A stretch of DNA of 24,396 bases. It comes from a virus. Positions 3,223 to 18,615 of the stretch are shown piece by piece. The translations under genes were made by a program, and so were the position numbers. The first letter of the stretch is position 1, and the number at the start of each line of letters is the position of its first letter. The stretch is taken from IMG/VR virus record IMGVR_UViG_3300017697_000093, positions 1 to 24,396 of that record. One strand, written 5' to 3'. The notes beneath the pieces are model-generated. The model saw only the letters and a program-made list of their open reading frames with translations. It did not search any database and was not told the DNA's origin.

Positions 3223-3922
3223 AAAGAACAAAGAAATTAATCAAAGTAGTTTAATAACAATCAAACCTATCACAGAAAATCAAAAGATAGTGTTTGAGTC
3301 GTTTAAGAATGCAAAGAACCAATTTTTATTTGGTGCTGCGGGCACTGGCAAAACATTTAGTGCGCTGTATCTTGCAATGCAGGCAGTTATGGATTTAAAA
3401 ACCAAATATGAGAAGGTAATTCTTGTTCGATCCCTTATTCCTACACGGGAAATTGGTTTCCTGCCGGGTGATGAGGAAGATAAGGCTGCACTATATCAGA
3501 TTCCATATCAGAATATGTTACAGTTTATGTTTGAGCAACCTAACGAGCAATCATTCAATAATTTATATGACCGTCTCAAGGGCCAAGGTACACTCTACTT
3601 TCTATCAACTTCTTTTCTAAGAGGATTGACATTTGATAACGCAATCATTATAGTAGATGAATGTCAAAACCTAAACTTCCATGAGCTGGATACAATTATC
3701 ACTCGTGTTGGCCAGGACTCAAAAATTATGTTCTGTGGAGATTTTGATCAAAGTGATTTGCAAAGAACAAATGAGAAAAATGGTTTACATAGTTTTCTTC
3801 GAATCTTAGAACAGATGGACGAATTTAACTGCACGGAATTTACTGTCGGTGATATTGTACGGAGTGGCTTTGTCCGGTCTTATCTTATCAATAAAATTAA
3901 ACTAGGAATAGGAATGGAATAA
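3209..3922 (+). CDS. phoH: PhoH-like P-loop ATPase
   Basis: The 237-residue protein is a PhoH-family ATPase. It has a Walker A motif, GAAGTGKTFSALYL (about residues 41-54), a Walker B, AIIIVDECQNL (about 144-154), and a FCGDFDQSDL segment typical of PhoH. It belongs to the PhoH/NAD(P)-binding-fold ATPases, and phoH is a frequent marine phage marker. Its biochemical role in phages is unsettled. I chose ATG 3209 because AAGGATAT lies 8 nt upstream and because residues encoded before it (from 3176) derive from the hairpin. It follows a late promoter box and a GC-rich leader hairpin. Confidence 0.93.
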   Translation: MSSTKKNKEINQSSLITIKPITENQKIVFESFKNAKNQFLFGAAGTGKTFSALYLAMQAVMDLKTKYEKVILVRSLIPTREIGFLPGDEEDKAALYQIPYQNMLQFMFEQPNEQSFNNLYDRLKGQGTLYFLSTSFLRGLTFDNAIIIVDECQNLNFHELDTIITRVGQDSKIMFCGDFDQSDLQRTNEKNGLHSFLRILEQMDEFNCTEFTVGDIVRSGFVRSYLINKIKLGIGME

Positions 3923-4685: not shown

Positions 4686-4938
4686 TGCACAATTAACACC
4701 TGTGAATAAAGTTGTTGCCTGTGGCAATTCTACTTTTGTGTTAAATGCTATTAAGAAATATGAGGAAAATCCTGTGATGACGTTTAGCAATGCTCAAACG
4801 GGTTTGCAAACCATAGTGTTTATCAACAAAGAAACAGGTTCAGCAACCATTACAGAGTCGTCAAGTGACGGTAGTTTTATGTGTATTATTAGTAGTGGCA
4901 CCAAAGAGTGGGCACAAAAAACTTCTTTAGGGGGTTGA
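4624..4938 (+). CDS. Secreted small protein with signal peptide
   Basis: The start at 4624 is preceded by GGAGAGAGAAAA. The 104-residue product begins MTFKITFLAIMICCLFPTVG, a hydrophobic core followed by NAQL, a good Sec signal peptide with cleavage predicted after NA. The mature part (about 82 residues) has CGN near its start and a second Cys (FMCIIS), which may form a disulfide in the periplasm. Similar small secreted proteins with an early Cys-Gly are encoded by other marine T4-like phages. The first 62 nt lie inside the 3' end of the nuclease gene in a different frame. Role unknown. Confidence 0.78.
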   Translation: MTFKITFLAIMICCLFPTVGNAQLTPVNKVVACGNSTFVLNAIKKYEENPVMTFSNAQTGLQTIVFINKETGSATITESSSDGSFMCIISSGTKEWAQKTSLGG

Positions 4939-4965
4939 CATTGTTCTTTTTGTGTGGTATAAATA
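4935..4965 (+). promoter_or_regulatory. Sigma70-type promoter overlapping a late box
   Basis: TTGACA (4935-4940), a 17-nt spacer and TATAAA (4958-4963) form a near-consensus sigma70 promoter. The same -10 region reads TATAAATA (4958-4965), the exact T4 late promoter consensus, so the site could serve both early host polymerase and late phage-modified polymerase. It precedes the small genes at 4990 and the tmRNA. Confidence 0.8.
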
Positions 4966-5137: not shown

Positions 5138-5197
5138 ATGGAACAGCTAATCGTGAGGGTTCAAGATGAAGAACCCTCTAGTACGAAAAGTAAGTAA
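5138..5197 (+). CDS. Possible 19-residue peptide
   Basis: A 19-codon frame (MEQLIVRVQDEEPSSTKSK) begins one base after the upstream stop with AAGGAAG at good spacing. It overlaps the next small ORF in another frame. Too short to assign; listed only because the ribosome binding site and packing are good. Confidence 0.35.
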   Translation: MEQLIVRVQDEEPSSTKSK

Positions 5198-5285
5198 ATG
5201 GATGCTTAGAGCATATATTCTTTGGAGTATTTGTGCTGATATCACTTTACTTAGTGGAATTATATATCTGGTCTTTTGGGGATAG
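5166..5285 (+). CDS. Small single-span membrane protein
   Basis: A 39-residue frame preceded by GAGGG with 6-nt spacing. The N-terminus is basic (MKNPLVRKVSKWMLR), followed by one long hydrophobic segment (about residues 16-38: AYILWSICADITLLSGIIYL and on), predicting a single transmembrane helix with the N-terminus inside. It ends just before the tmRNA acceptor piece. Function unknown. Confidence 0.55.
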   Translation: MKNPLVRKVSKWMLRAYILWSICADITLLSGIIYLVFWG

Positions 5286-5310
5286 ATATATACAGATGTA
5301 ACGATGAAGG

Positions 5311-5575
5311 AAGTTGAAAACTGTAATGGACTCCGGGGCAGTACCGGACGCCTCCACCATAAGGATACTAAAAGGTGAAGGTTTTAGAGATTAGTGTCTT
5401 TATGATGGGGGCGATAATAGGTTTCGACATGCAGACAATAGATGACTGGAGTTACCGATTGGTCACGTTATGACTATATAAACTAAATGCAAACGATAAC
5501 GCATTTATGGGAGATTACGCTCTAGCAGCATAATCTTTCGGGGTTCGGTGGGTTCCTAGCAACAGAATACCCATC
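5311..5575 (+). ncRNA. ssrA: Circularly permuted two-piece tmRNA
   Basis: The acceptor piece comes first: T stem TCCGG/CCGGA (5332-5336, 5344-5348) with a 7-nt loop, 3' acceptor strand CGCCTCC (5349-5355), A, then CCA (5357-5359). The coding piece begins at 5407 with GGGGGCG, which pairs with the acceptor strand over 7 bp with one G-U pair. It continues with GGTTTCGA. CATGCAG (5428-5434) pairs with CTGTAATG (5321-5328) with one bulge, matching helix P2. The tag frame at 5489-5533 reads ANDNAFMGDYALAA then TAA. A hairpin with GGTGGGT and ACCCATC follows. The 3'-before-5' gene order is that of alphaproteobacterial two-piece tmRNA; the intervening segment (5360-5406) would be excised. Outer ends are approximate. 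It rescues stalled ribosomes and tags their products. Confidence 0.93.
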
Positions 5576-5594
5576 ACTTTATTAACAAAGGGTA

Positions 5595-5623
5595 TTGACA
5601 AAAAGATAATAACCTGATATACT
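5595..5623 (+). promoter_or_regulatory. Sigma70-type promoter for the beta-barrel-like gene
   Basis: TTGACA (5595-5600), 17-nt spacer, TATACT (5618-5623). Nearly consensus. It lies just after the tmRNA coding piece and about 70 nt upstream of the ATG at 5693. Confidence 0.85.
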
Positions 5624-5692: not shown

Positions 5693-6076
5693 ATGAGGGC
5701 ACTAATCATTGGAGCTGCACTTGCAGTTAGTATTTCTACGGTTGCAATGGCAGAAGAAAAGGCAGAAAATAAGACACTTGTTCCTAATTTGTCAGCAGTA
5801 GATTTTACTTTTATGACCGACACTGAATATAATGTGACGAATGAAACGGTGTTCACAGATTTTGGTGTTACTGCTGAAATGAAAGGTATTGATTTATCAC
5901 TCACTCCACAATTCAGTTGGGATGATCAAGAGATTTCTAATGTTGAATTTGCAGCAGGATATACATTTAATGTAAATGATTCTTTTGGTATTAGGCCTTA
6001 TGGAGAATTTAATCTTGATAAGGATTTTAATGTTGGAGATAAAATTGTTGGTGTGAAAACAACATACAATTTCTGA
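5693..6076 (+). CDS. Small secreted outer-membrane beta-barrel-like protein
   Basis: The 127-residue protein starts with a classical signal peptide (MRALIIGAALAVSISTVAMA, cleaved before EEK), so it is exported. The mature part is rich in alternating hydrophobic and polar residues, with repeated short strands (VDFTFMTDTEYNV, ISNVEFAAGYTFNV, SFGIRPYGEFNL), and ends in TTYNF. A C-terminal Phe after alternating residues is the BAM-recognition signature of outer-membrane beta-barrels. It most resembles a small barrel or half-barrel. A phage could use it to alter the host envelope, for example to block superinfecting phages, but this is inference. Its own promoter is at 5595, GGAG is upstream of the ATG, and a hairpin follows at 6092. 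Confidence 0.75.
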   Translation: MRALIIGAALAVSISTVAMAEEKAENKTLVPNLSAVDFTFMTDTEYNVTNETVFTDFGVTAEMKGIDLSLTPQFSWDDQEISNVEFAAGYTFNVNDSFGIRPYGEFNLDKDFNVGDKIVGVKTTYNF

Positions 6077-6133: not shown

Positions 6134-6352
6134 ATGTCATTAAGCACATTAAAAGCTTTTTCAATGGAAATTGAAAAGCTTGCAATAGACAAGAACATCA
6201 CACATATGGATGCAGTTCTTGATTATTGTCACCGACAAAATATTGAGCCTGATACTGTGGGGCGTCTGATTTCCAAGAGTCTCAAAGAGAAGATTGAAGC
6301 AAACGCACGGGAACTAAACTTTCTCCCTCGACAGGCACAGCTTCCTATATGA
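6134..6352 (+). CDS. 33: gp33-like late transcription coactivator
   Basis: A 72-residue protein. The pattern THMDAVLDYCHRQNIEPDTVGRLISKSLKEKIEANARELNFLPRQ resembles the small gp33 homologues of marine T4-like phages. In T4, gp33 bridges RNA polymerase to the sliding clamp and the gp55 sigma factor, enabling late transcription from TATAAATA promoters. This is consistent with several such boxes in the window. GGAG lies upstream of the ATG. The stop overlaps the next ATG (ATGA). The identification is from remembered sequence pattern and gene neighbourhood (next to the gp59-like gene), not a search. Confidence 0.65.
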   Translation: MSLSTLKAFSMEIEKLAIDKNITHMDAVLDYCHRQNIEPDTVGRLISKSLKEKIEANARELNFLPRQAQLPI

Positions 6353-6516
6353 AACATCTCAAGGAAAACAACACTAACAACTACAATTTGTTGTTATTCT
6401 ATTTTATGCACCTTGCTCATGCGTGGGTGATGGCTATTGTTCTAATTATTCACGGGGTAATTCCCTGCATTCTAACTGATTGGGTATCGAAGCGTATCTG
6501 TAATGGAACCGATTGA
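6349..6516 (+). CDS. Small membrane protein (DUF6356-like)
   Basis: A 55-residue frame starting inside the gp33-like stop (ATGA) and ending 14 nt into the gp59-like gene. The N-terminus (MKHLKENNTNNYNLLLFYFM) is followed by a hydrophobic stretch with HAWVMAIVLIIHGVIPCILTD, which predicts one or two membrane helices. The IHGVIPCILTDWVSKRI end resembles the short DUF6356 family of phage and alphaproteobacterial membrane proteins. Function unknown. Overlap on both sides supports it as a real, coupled gene. Confidence 0.65.
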   Translation: MKHLKENNTNNYNLLLFYFMHLAHAWVMAIVLIIHGVIPCILTDWVSKRICNGTD

Positions 6517-7084
6517 CGTTTATCTAATGTACTGTGCTATGAAGGCACACTTTGGTAGGGGGAATTATGACTTTGTAACATACAAGGGTAAGACTCGTAT
6601 CAAACGTGATACATTTTATAAACGTAAGGACAGGTCGTTCTTTGTAAAGCTATCACGCAAGTACAAGACAGAACAAGAAATTCAAAACTACTTTGTATCA
6701 AATTTCATCAAAGACAAGAAGGGGTATATTGCCAACTTCAATGATGAGAACTATGAATCGTGGAAGTTGAAACGTCAGGGTTTCTTTGATCTGTTTGAGG
6801 TAGAGATGAAACCTCTTGTAGAAGCGTTTGAGGATTTGTTCGTAGTAAACGATGGACAACACCCTAAATTAATGAGAGAGTTTCTAGGTGGTCGAGTCTC
6901 TCTAGAGACAGTGATCATATTAGATGAACTGGTCAACTTTGGGCCTGATTGGGATAAAGCATTAGAGGATGATATTATATGGAATGATTTAAATAATCTC
7001 ATAGATAATTACGAAAGGTTCTTGACAATTGATCAAGAACAGTATAAGATAAGACTATTAAAACTCATAGAGGAGTCCATTTGA
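6503..7084 (+). CDS. 59: gp59-like replicative helicase loader
   Basis: The 193-residue protein matches the gp59 family pattern at its N-terminus: MEPIDVYLMYCAMKAHFGRG, then YDFVTYKGKTRIKRDTFYKRKDRSFFVKLSRKYK. This includes the conserved FYKRKDRxFF segment. T4 gp59 (217 aa) binds forked DNA and gp32 and loads the gp41 helicase. The partners are both here: gp32 at 8857 and the gp41-like helicase at 21001. The protein is slightly shorter than T4 gp59. Its stop overlaps the next ATG by one base (TGATG). The assignment is by motif recall and context. Confidence 0.82.
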   Translation: MEPIDVYLMYCAMKAHFGRGNYDFVTYKGKTRIKRDTFYKRKDRSFFVKLSRKYKTEQEIQNYFVSNFIKDKKGYIANFNDENYESWKLKRQGFFDLFEVEMKPLVEAFEDLFVVNDGQHPKLMREFLGGRVSLETVIILDELVNFGPDWDKALEDDIIWNDLNNLIDNYERFLTIDQEQYKIRLLKLIEESI

Positions 7085-9773: not shown

Positions 9774-11756
9774 TTAATATGCCATGCCACGGTTTAACTC
9801 AACATTTCTCGTAAGGACTTGGTTGTACTTTCCTTCGTAGCTATTCTTGACGTTTGTGTATTGGTTGGCTTGTATAGGAGCAACAATGGGACTATCAAAA
9901 TTGCCAGCTCCTGTAGTTTCTGCACCCCTCTTACTTGCCTCAGCTGCAGCCGTAGCTCTTGATAAATCCAGAGCTACGAGGCTTCCTTCAATGCCAATTG
10001 AAGCAGCAGTGCCAGCGACTGGTACTACGCTAGCAATACCACTAGCTATTTCTAATCCTGCTCCAATAAAATCGCCACCTAATGCTCTCTTTGTGCCGAA
10101 AAACAACCCGGAAATTAGTCCTGCTACGGGGAAAGCTTTCAACGCCCCCTTTGCTAGGGATTTACCGGCCGCACCTGCAATTTTTGCGCTAGATGATACT
10201 GTTTTTGCAGCCTTCAATATACCCGTATTACTGACCGCACTTGATGTACTTCGTCTTAAAGCCATATCTTGTACGCTTCTTTGCGTTGCTTTTTCTGCAG
10301 CTCCCCTAGCAAGTCTTGCAGCAAGTGCTTTAGATGCACTATTTGATAACGCACTTGATGTACTTCGTCTTAAAGCCATTTCTCTTAGGTTTCTTTGCGT
10401 TGCTTTCATTGCATCTGCCGCAGCAAGTGCTTTCTCTGCAACTAATTTCTTGGCGGCAGCTGCCGGGGCGGCCACCTTTTTCTTGGCGGCCTCTGCAACT
10501 CTCGCCGCTTGTTGTGTAATTAATGTAGGTTTTTGTTTTAGTAAAGCTTTGCGTTGCTCTATAACTCTTTGGCTTACTGCTTGTCTTTGTGCCTTTTCTG
10601 CTTGTTGGACTCTTTTAATTCTATCAGCTTCTGCTTGTCTGGCAAGTCTTTCTTGTTTTTGAACTTCTTTAAGTCTATTAGCTTCTGCCAGTTTCGCAGC
10701 TCTTCTTACTGCTTGTCTTTGTGCCTTTTCTGCTTGTTGGACTCTTTTAATTCTATCAGCTTCTGCCCGTTTAGCAGCTTCGAGACGTTGACGCTGCTCT
10801 TTAGCTCTTTGCTTTACTTCTTTCGCCTTCGCCGCTCTTTGTGCCTTTTCAGCATCTCTTTGTGACTTCGAAACGCCTTCAGGTATTGCCGCCTTGGTGG
10901 AGCCCGTTAAAAAATTATATGCTGCAAACAACGCACCCACAGCAGCTGTTAATGGACCAAATATCAAAGCCAGTTTTGCAACAGTCATTAATGCGCCAAC
11001 ACTCAGCACACCCGCAACAATCAGGCCTATACCAGTTTTGTCACCAAATAATTCTTTAAATCCCTTTATGAGGCCGCCTTCTTCACCAAAGAATGCCTCA
11101 TAAAATCCTTTTAATTTTGGAATGAGAGTTCCAGAAATATACTTTGTTATTTTCTTGAAGGTGTCACTTTGCAGAAATTTACCAAGAGCAATCATCATTG
11201 CACCAATAGCAAGAGTAGAAAGAAGCGCCATACCACCTAACGCAGCGGTCTTCAACCCCTTCTTACCCATCTCAAATAGACCACCAATTCCAGCAGCAAT
11301 CTTATCTAGACGGGAACCATTCTTCTTTGCATCTGCTCTTGCTTCTTCTCTCATTTCTTTTTTAGCAGCAGGAGATGTTGCGTTTTTAATGCGTTGTGCG
11401 TAATCTGCCTTTCTTGCCTCATAACTTAATTTTTGAAACTCTTTATTGTCCTCTGCAATTTTACCATTTTCTTCTAATTCTTTTTTAAGAGCTATTGCCT
11501 GACCAGCAGATGTTTTACTCAATTCCTCTTCTTTTCTTGCAGATTCCCTTCTATCCTCATTCATTCTTTCCAGTTTTTTCACATTGTCTTTATGTTCTCT
11601 GGTCCTTTTGTCTTTGGAATTACGAACTTCATCACGCAAGTCAGTTAACTCACGGCTCTGGCTTAGCTTTGAGTCTGCTGCAGCTCTCTCGTTAGACCTT
11701 TGCAATTCTTCAATTGCTTTTGGAAATCTTGATGCAATTTCTTCTAAACTGGCCAT
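9774..11756 (-). CDS. Putative tail tape-measure or large tail structural protein
   Basis: This 660-residue protein is the largest in the window. Residues about 1-170 are charged coiled coil (RSNERAAADSKLSQSRELTD and similar). Hydrophobic stretches lie at about 180-205 (ALGGMALLSTLAIGAMMIAL) and 240-282 (LIVAGVLSVGALMTVAKLAL). Next comes a Lys/Gln/Arg/Ala-rich repetitive helix (about 295-440), then an Ala-rich repeat region and a Gly/Ala-rich hydrophobic C-terminal domain (FPVAGLISGLFFGTKRALGG). Long coiled coils with membrane-like segments fit a tape measure, as does a position downstream of the tail-assembly chaperone. I cannot align it to T4 gp29. The ATG has TAAGGAG 6-12 nt upstream. Confidence 0.6.
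   Translation of the reverse strand: MASLEEIASRFPKAIEELQRSNERAAADSKLSQSRELTDLRDEVRNSKDKRTREHKDNVKKLERMNEDRRESARKEEELSKTSAGQAIALKKELEENGKIAEDNKEFQKLSYEARKADYAQRIKNATSPAAKKEMREEARADAKKNGSRLDKIAAGIGGLFEMGKKGLKTAALGGMALLSTLAIGAMMIALGKFLQSDTFKKITKYISGTLIPKLKGFYEAFFGEEGGLIKGFKELFGDKTGIGLIVAGVLSVGALMTVAKLALIFGPLTAAVGALFAAYNFLTGSTKAAIPEGVSKSQRDAEKAQRAAKAKEVKQRAKEQRQRLEAAKRAEADRIKRVQQAEKAQRQAVRRAAKLAEANRLKEVQKQERLARQAEADRIKRVQQAEKAQRQAVSQRVIEQRKALLKQKPTLITQQAARVAEAAKKKVAAPAAAAKKLVAEKALAAADAMKATQRNLREMALRRSTSSALSNSASKALAARLARGAAEKATQRSVQDMALRRSTSSAVSNTGILKAAKTVSSSAKIAGAAGKSLAKGALKAFPVAGLISGLFFGTKRALGGDFIGAGLEIASGIASVVPVAGTAASIGIEGSLVALDLSRATAAAEASKRGAETTGAGNFDSPIVAPIQANQYTNVKNSYEGKYNQVLTRNVELNRGMAY
10236..10265. 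repeat. 30-nt direct repeat, copy 1 (tape measure)
   Basis: An exact 30-nt direct repeat of 10350-10379, offset by 114 nt (38 codons, so the reading frame is kept). It encodes the MALRRSTSSA repeat in the tape-measure candidate. Confidence 0.95.
10350..10379. repeat. 30-nt direct repeat, copy 2 (tape measure)
   Basis: The second copy of the repeat at 10236-10265. The encoded repeat units (AEKATQRSVQDMALRRSTSSA and an ATQRNLREMALRRSTSSA version) are part of a duplicated 38-residue segment. Confidence 0.95.
10573..10634. repeat. 62-nt exact direct repeat, copy 1
   Basis: An exact 62-nt repeat of 10705-10766, offset by 132 nt (44 codons). It encodes AEADRIKRVQQAEKAQRQAV in the coiled-coil region of the tape-measure candidate. 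The perfect identity implies a recent in-frame duplication or conversion. Confidence 0.95.
10705..10766. repeat. 62-nt exact direct repeat, copy 2
   Basis: The partner of 10573-10634. The 44-residue unit is a plausible ruler-lengthening step in a tape-measure protein. Confidence 0.95.
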
Positions 11757-17792: not shown

Positions 17793-17984
17793 ATGGCTAA
17801 GACCAGACAACGCATCAAGAAGATGACCTTCCAGACACAAGAGCGTACTCCAGTTCATTATAGCTCACTTTCAGAGAATGATAAATACATTATAGAAGCT
17901 GCAGGATATAGAAAACAAGGACATAATGATAATGAAGACATATCACGAACTACAGGAAGGTCTTCAAGACCCCAATATATTTAA
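17793..17984 (+). CDS. Small basic protein, unknown
   Basis: A 63-residue basic protein preceded by AAAGGAATTAAAA. The N-terminus (MAKTRQRIKKMTFQTQERTP) is strongly basic. Its last 53 nt overlap the kinase-like gene in another frame, so the C-terminus may be constrained or incidental. No family recognised. Confidence 0.5.
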   Translation: MAKTRQRIKKMTFQTQERTPVHYSSLSENDKYIIEAAGYRKQGHNDNEDISRTTGRSSRPQYI

Positions 17985-18615
17985 AGCGTTCTTCCTTGCA
18001 GGTGGACCGGGCAGCGGTAAATCATACGTTGTCCGGTACTCCACTGGTGGGACAGGATTGCGTGTCGTAAACTCTGATGACGTGTTTGAGAAGTATCTCA
18101 AGGATGCTGGTCTCTCATTGAAGATGCCACCAGAGGAATGGGACGAAAATCAGAGGGAACGGGCACGGGCAAAGAAAGTCACTTCTGCTCGCCAAAAGAA
18201 CTATATCGAAGGACGTATCGGTATGGTAATTGACGGCACTGGTAAGGAATACGACAAGATTCGGCAACAGAAGGCAGACCTAGAAGCACTGGGATACGAC
18301 ACTCATATGATATTCGTTAACACCTCAATTGAGGTTGCATTGGAGCGTAATGCTAAGCGTGAGCGCACTGTGCCAGAAGATGTTGCCATTATTAGTTGGA
18401 AACAAGTACAGGGTAATATCGGTAAGTTTAGCTCCCTGTTCAGAGGCACTATGGTCATTGTTGACAACAACAAACCAGATGATAATATTGAGGTGGAAAC
18501 TTTCAAGGAAGTTAAGCGTCTACTAGGTAAAAAGGTTAGAAACACCCGTGCCAACCAGTGGATTGAGATAGAGATGAAGAAACGTGGTATTACAAGAAAA
18601 CCCAAGGGTTTCTAA
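17932..18615 (+). CDS. P-loop kinase (zeta-toxin/AAA-type)
   Basis: The 227-residue protein has a Walker A, AGGPGSGKSYVV (about residues 23-34), then VNSDDVFEKYLKDAG (about 45-60), IDGTGKEYDKIRQQ (about 100-113) and a basic lid region (ERNAKRERTVPED). This is the AAA_33/zeta-toxin-like kinase arrangement found in polynucleotide and metabolite kinases. The substrate cannot be predicted. Small kinases of this sort are common in marine phages. ATG 17932 is chosen; ATG 17926 two codons earlier is also possible. AAGGA lies upstream. It ends about 8 nt before an early promoter. Confidence 0.78.
   Translation: MKTYHELQEGLQDPNIFKAFFLAGGPGSGKSYVVRYSTGGTGLRVVNSDDVFEKYLKDAGLSLKMPPEEWDENQRERARAKKVTSARQKNYIEGRIGMVIDGTGKEYDKIRQQKADLEALGYDTHMIFVNTSIEVALERNAKRERTVPEDVAIISWKQVQGNIGKFSSLFRGTMVIVDNNKPDDNIEVETFKEVKRLLGKKVRNTRANQWIEIEMKKRGITRKPKGF

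Follow-up and report, generated by a model that had tools for sequence, protein, structure and literature searches.

The window, by which we mean the whole 24,396 bases of the IMG/VR virus fragment IMGVR_UViG_3300017697_000093, carries genes typical of T4-like phages, among them PhoH, an exonuclease, gp59, thymidylate synthase, gp32 and a tail tube cap gene. Between the exonuclease and gp33-gp59, in a locus order of the type found in Methylophilales phage Melnitz, lies a permuted two-piece tmRNA gene with promoter matches and small ORFs around it (Table 1). The first gene past the tmRNA, preceded by the conserved downstream promoter, encodes a small outer-membrane beta-barrel-like protein (5693-6076; PF13505, under its cut-off) and is retained in many relatives. 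Elsewhere in the window there is a match to a Zeta-toxin/AAA kinase domain (17926-18615; PF06414, E 1.8e-12) and, on the minus strand, a 660-aa ORF (9774-11756) that weakly matches families of endolysins and peptidases.

Table 1. Features at and around the tmRNA locus of the window
Feature	Position	Strand	Basis
Sigma-70-like promoter TTGACA-17-TATAAA, probable promoter of the small-ORF and tmRNA transcript	4935-4963	+	sequence, conservation
48-aa ORF, function unknown, located between the promoter and ORF1/ORF2; also in L083	4990-5136	+	sequence
ORF1 (MEQLIVRVQDEEPSSTKSK), overlaps ORF2 out of frame; little support for its being a gene	5138-5197	+	sequence
ORF2 MKNPLVRKVSKWMLRAYILWSICADITLLSGIIYLVFWG, 39-aa predicted single-span membrane protein	5166-5285	+	tblastn over relatives
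tmRNA acceptor piece (P2 strands, T arm, acceptor 3' strand, A73, CCA)	5298-5359	+	RF04321, RF01849, covariation
P2 strand GUAAC	5298-5302	+	pairs with GUUAC of the other half
T arm UCCGGGGCAGUACCGGA	5332-5348	+	sequence
Acceptor 3' strand CGCCUCC	5349-5355	+	sequence
A73	5356	+	sequence
Encoded CCA	5357-5359	+	sequence
Intervening segment, 47 nt, plain hairpin	5360-5406	+	fold, end-pairing test
tmRNA coding piece (acceptor 5' strand, GGUUUCGAC, P2 strands, tag frame, 3' helix)	5407-5578	+	RF01849 to 5578
Acceptor 5' strand GGGGGCG	5407-5413	+	sequence
Tag frame ANDNAFMGDYALAA with stop UAA (5531-5533)	5489-5533	+	translation; aligned to the last position of RF04321
Sigma-70-like promoter TTGACA-17-TATACT, TG extension, 3' of tmRNA	5595-5623	+	11/12 matches
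gp33-like late-transcription coactivator gene, synteny marker	6134-6352	+	tblastn to annotated Melnitz gene
gp59-like helicase loader gene, synteny marker	6503-7084	+	phrog_269, E 3.1e-57

Two Rfam covariance models recognised the gene with cmscan: RF01849 (alpha_tmRNA) matched 5242-5578 (+) with 98.5 bits (E 4.5e-26) and RF04321 (tmRNA_permuted) matched 5298-5533 (+) with 99.4 bits, both scores being approximately twice the curated cut-offs of 50 and 47 bits, respectively. A repeat Rfam search of the window's own genome gave the same tmRNA result, and Caulobacter was the sole control genome with a signal. A covariance search had been proposed in the preliminary description of this DNA, as had a run of ARAGORN, which reported no tmRNA at the locus in either its default or its tmRNA-only mode and found the two tRNAs of the window; these sit elsewhere, ruling out a tRNA misread as a tmRNA. 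A chance match is ruled out by the bit scores, shuffles and covariation. ARAGORN, the tool of the published phage count, can miss divergent tmRNA members. Direct DNA comparison of the window tmRNA with phage isolates returned short pieces only. On these sequence grounds the window is confirmed to carry a genuine phage-encoded permuted two-piece tmRNA gene, as the preliminary description had proposed.

The gene has the permuted arrangement, in which the acceptor half with its CCA is followed by the intervening segment and then by the coding half. The acceptor stem comprises seven base pairs (GGGGGCG/CGCCUCC), including G3-U70, and is followed by A73; G3-U70, the third acceptor pair, is the identity pair for alanine. 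The coding piece continues from its acceptor strand with the D-loop-like GGUUUCGAC, the two halves are joined by P2-type pairings (GUAAC/GUUAC, CUGU/GCAG and AUG/CAU), and a helix (GGUGGGU/ACCCAUC) lies in the 3' region of the coding piece. The tag frame begins with alanine, ends in a degron (ALAA) and has a stop codon. The order of the halves, the tag frame, the 7-bp acceptor and the P2-like pairings had all been described beforehand and hold; the extent then given, 5311-5575, falls on the gene and begins slightly late, as the P2 strand starts at 5298.

For 5298-5452, RNA folding yields -50 kcal/mol; shuffled sequences gave -32.6 (sd 3.6), a difference of 4.8 sd, and none of them folded as well. 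Covariation was assessed over 22 distinct phage copies, aligned with the intervening segment removed, on a structure of 29 pairs which was specified beforehand and built on one relative, L084. Paired bases filled 95.6% of the cells, and both-side changes occurred at 15 of the 29 pairs (56 cells), where shuffles gave means of 6.5 pairs (14.8 cells). With the pairing partner shifted by 1-3 columns, pairing fell to 39-51%. As the structure was drawn from a single member, this control is somewhat biased towards it; stronger evidence comes from the both-side changes found in the T stem, the acceptor and P2. The two P2 helices hold seven pairs with both-side changes among relatives, the G3-U70 pair is G-U in all 22 aligned copies, and around the tag a covarying hairpin before it and the 3' helix are seen. 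The view that the tmRNA is a functionless passenger captured from a host, for which the tmRNA remnants in some relatives (L101, L102) might speak, appears to be largely refuted by this covariation, and is made very improbable by the G3-U70 pair in all aligned copies, the intact tags, and a promoter and a locus that are conserved throughout a diverse lineage.

Strict DNA patterns for the tmRNA gene gave one match or none in viral contigs, and relatives were therefore gathered via gp32 and gp59. RF01849 matches were found, by our own count, in 67 of 90 distinct related IMG/VR records, 63 of them above the cut-off, many of the records without a match being fragments that end before the locus. Where both exonuclease and gp59 were present, a pairing-based finder located the tmRNA in 61 of 66 loci; from the other five, L003, L061 and L020 were not scanned, being pieces of the L083, L128 and L119 records, respectively, and L118 and L119 have a variant tmRNA with a 6-nt T loop, which RF04321 detects in L119. 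Since the gene is lost or damaged in some relatives (the remnant in L101/L102 and the 6-nt T loop of L118/L119), it is not essential to the lineage. A second weak alpha_tmRNA match (24-28 bits) lies approximately 225 nt past the first in G070 and G071, the records of L130 and L131, and is perhaps a partial second copy.

The nearest isolate to the window is Melnitz (41% identity in gp59 and 68% in gp32), whose genome (MZ577097) has the same gene order, its annotated SsrA being flanked by the exonuclease region and the late-transcription coactivator gene. The tmRNA of this OM43 phage has been described, in a paper which calls permuted tmRNA rare in phages and gives 53 two-piece structures, mostly aquatic, from a survey of 18,146 phage genomes (PMC9004378). 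A phage permuted tmRNA at a locus of the window's type is already known from Melnitz; the present results show that such a tmRNA, known mainly from that phage and certain of its relatives, occurs throughout a broad lineage which is for the most part uncultured.

The permuted form had been taken to point to the phage host. This is not well supported, as Melnitz has a non-alphaproteobacterial host and yet its tmRNA, at the corresponding locus, is of the alpha type (PMC9004378), and in a tree (145 columns) built from 36 phage tmRNAs and 53 alphaproteobacterial ones all phage copies, Melnitz included, form one clade with 100/100 support, apart from the bacterial sequences sampled. The gene thus travels with the phage lineage, and is best read as an old gene of that lineage, not as a marker of the window phage's host. 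The place of the clade among bacterial tmRNAs is left unfixed by the short alignment, a seeming recombination of gene parts and the limited bacterial sample; within the tree a long branch leads to the window copy and L083. A recent capture of the gene from one of the sampled hosts was rejected in view of the separate phage clade and of the bacterial loci with the lineage's D/P2 pattern, 12 of which were checked out of 22 and were not tmRNAs according to Rfam. In one bacterial genome (G478, locus L238) the tmRNA tag, ANDNVASQDFALAA, is very similar to those of phages, e.g., ANDNFASQDFALAA; the tree does not group them.

A TTG-type promoter match was found upstream of the tmRNA in 45 of 54 distinct relatives, against approximately 6% of shuffled sequences, and its second hexamer in relatives mostly ends 67 nt before the CCA, so that transcription would start near the P2 strand. 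The TATAAATA part of the upstream promoter also resembles the T4-type late motif. The promoter, putatively an early one, which the preliminary description had placed directly after the tmRNA is indeed a consensus match, and a TTGACA-promoter match lies downstream in 34 of 54 distinct relatives, mostly with the same hexamers and at a similar distance; being downstream of the tmRNA, it would serve the next gene instead.

The 22 distinct tags found in phage copies share the ending LAA without exception, and the AN..N start is kept in the complete relatives read. An LAA end is recognised by ClpXP in studied bacteria. No SmpB gene was found in the window, in six relatives or in the complete Melnitz genome, and host SmpB would thus be needed. 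Judged by membership of the tmRNA family, the most likely role is host-SmpB-dependent ribosome rescue with a degradation tag, and we give a probability of roughly 0.8 to the reading of the gene as a permuted two-piece ssrA of a T4-like (Melnitz/Kyanoviridae-related) marine phage which would act in this manner. A single transcript from the upstream promoter would fold into an extended hairpin, from which the 47-nt intervening segment would be cut out by host tRNA-processing enzymes; the two pieces would remain paired, be charged with alanine by host AlaRS and bind host SmpB. Ribosomes stalled on broken messages during infection would then be rescued and their products tagged for ClpXP-type proteolysis, the phage copy adding rescue capacity, or a phage-tuned tag, in infection. 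Counted against this reading are the divergence of the window copy, which with L083 is the greatest in the lineage (branch 0.37), the failure of ARAGORN to recognise it, and the lost or damaged copies of some relatives.

Re-labelling of products, also raised beforehand, is less likely than ordinary degradative tagging, which is favoured because every distinct phage tag ends in LAA. The Melnitz authors suggest that a phage's own tag redirects proteolysis, e.g., to degrade host proteins for amino-acid recycling, rather than serving general rescue (PMC9004378), and the phage tags do differ from most sampled bacterial tags whilst retaining the degron end. However, trans-translation acts on stalled ribosomes and therefore has no known means of choosing host proteins, and the lineage has many different tags (22 forms); redirection is thus considered unlikely. 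About as unlikely is an expressed decoy, tying up host SmpB or AlaRS and so inhibiting host trans-translation, in the way that the tRNA-like-domain RNA of mycobacteriophage DS6A inhibits tmRNA (PMC4131195, PMC11915505): a decoy would not require a tag, but neither the window nor any complete relative that was read has a broken tag frame, and the AN..N start and LAA end are kept.

Most bacterial intervening segments that could be read had 6-74 nt, while loci chosen for their length gave 92, 115 and 165 nt; the common lengths in the phage lineage are 159 and 177 nt, and these segments hold ORF2, which encodes a protein of 38 or 44 aa in which a single membrane span is predicted from inspection of the sequence. 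The layout is the same in each of the 26 distinct segments of the 159- and 177-nt types: the ORF2 start lies 41 nt past the CCA, and the stop codon ends one base short of the acceptor strand. Single-base codon differences in nested relatives, counted over the part outside the ORF1 overlap and in pairwise, non-independent fashion, were 325 synonymous against 93 nonsynonymous for the 159-nt type and 515 against 117 for the 177-nt type, an excess that is what would be expected of a protein gene under purifying selection. Searches with ORF2 gave a single weak hit in PHROGs and nothing in Pfam or among phage isolates. ORF1 was rejected as a separate gene, its start and length being variable.

Among 43 distinct phage segments 20 nt or longer, 41 have ends which pair for 12-14 bp just beyond the acceptor stem, a result matched by no more than 0.6% of shuffles. 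The ends of the window segment likewise extend the acceptor stem by approximately 14 bp (none of 500 shuffles as good), and such pairing is seen in several bacterial segments too. For the ORF2 types, one strand of the end stem is AAAGGAGAU, which is Shine-Dalgarno-like (AAAGGAG), and the other is made up of the last codons of ORF2, suggesting that the stem may control translation.

Other ORFs are found in the segments of L090/L144, L094/L188 and Melnitz, with an extra one in L125/L193. The ORF of Melnitz (L198, MZ577097, 3138-3302), unannotated in the published genome, begins in the intervening segment of its published tmRNA and, like that of L090, extends into the coding half, so that both are weaker as genes. 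The segment reaches 380 nt in L193/L194 and L125/L126, where a further 72-aa ORF stands ahead of ORF1/ORF2. In L118/L119 it is 574 nt long and filled by an HNH/endonuclease VII-type gene (phrog_3322, E 6.9e-20; 4332-4898 in L119); there the tmRNA T loop is one base short, and ORF1/ORF2 with their own promoter lie directly upstream of the endonuclease-bearing tmRNA.

ORF2 is nested in the segment in most relatives; in the window it lies past the upstream promoter and just upstream of the tmRNA. The stretch GUGGUAUAAAUAACAUACAAUU around the second hexamer of the window promoter is identical to that running straight into the tmRNA P2 strand in relatives such as L022. In L102 (1406-1615) an intact ORF2 gene follows a shortened acceptor-half piece, and just the tag end and 3' stem of the tmRNA are left 1.6 kb downstream (approximately 3256-3330), with methyltransferase-like genes between. 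These few loci suggest that ORF2 was once nested, stayed after its tmRNA was lost or replaced, and may have been kept for its own sake. In this phage lineage the segment is probably a slot for protein genes, mostly ORF2 but elsewhere the HNH endonuclease or other small ORFs, from which tRNA-type processing might release or expose a small mRNA, and the cargo of the window would have been displaced upstream.

The contents of intervening sequences named in a 2025 tmRNA database paper are a tRNA gene and a repetitive element only (PMC11915505), and the Melnitz paper, where it treats the tmRNA, makes no mention of an ORF in the segment (PMC9004378). No description of a protein gene in a tmRNA intervening segment was found in the literature, in which subscription papers were thinly covered, and priority is uncertain. 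The tmRNA itself is of a known kind and the nested protein genes look to be the new part. If true, a protein gene filling the removed segment of a permuted RNA gene is an unusual gene-within-gene layout, in which RNA processing and the translation of a small protein are possibly linked, and a related arrangement is accessible in the cultured Melnitz-OM43 system.

Compared with known systems, the window is closest to Melnitz, with which it shares the alpha-type permuted tmRNA, the locus PhoH-exonuclease-tmRNA-gp33-gp59, the type of upstream promoter and the tag end DYALAA. However, Melnitz has a 142-nt intervening segment with its unannotated ORF, whereas the window has the 47-nt hairpin, an upstream ORF2 and a divergent P2 region. 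Melnitz also has a glutamine riboswitch (RF01739) after the tmRNA, which its authors call common and not defining (PMC9004378), whereas the Rfam scan gave no riboswitch match in the window. Alphaproteobacterial ssrA (RF01849) is alike in gene order, acceptor, T loop type (GGCAGUA), tag start (ANDN) and, in some bacterial copies, the pairing of the segment ends; the phage copies nevertheless form a separate clade, and the mostly 6-74 nt bacterial segments read have no convincing ORF. As in L119, an endonuclease gene lies inside the tmRNA gene where group I introns carry homing endonuclease genes (PMC11915505), but L119 has it within the intervening segment of its permuted gene and not in an intron. 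The tRNA-like-domain-only RNA of mycobacteriophage DS6A is likewise a phage-encoded tmRNA-like RNA; unlike it, the window gene possesses the tag and P2 parts.
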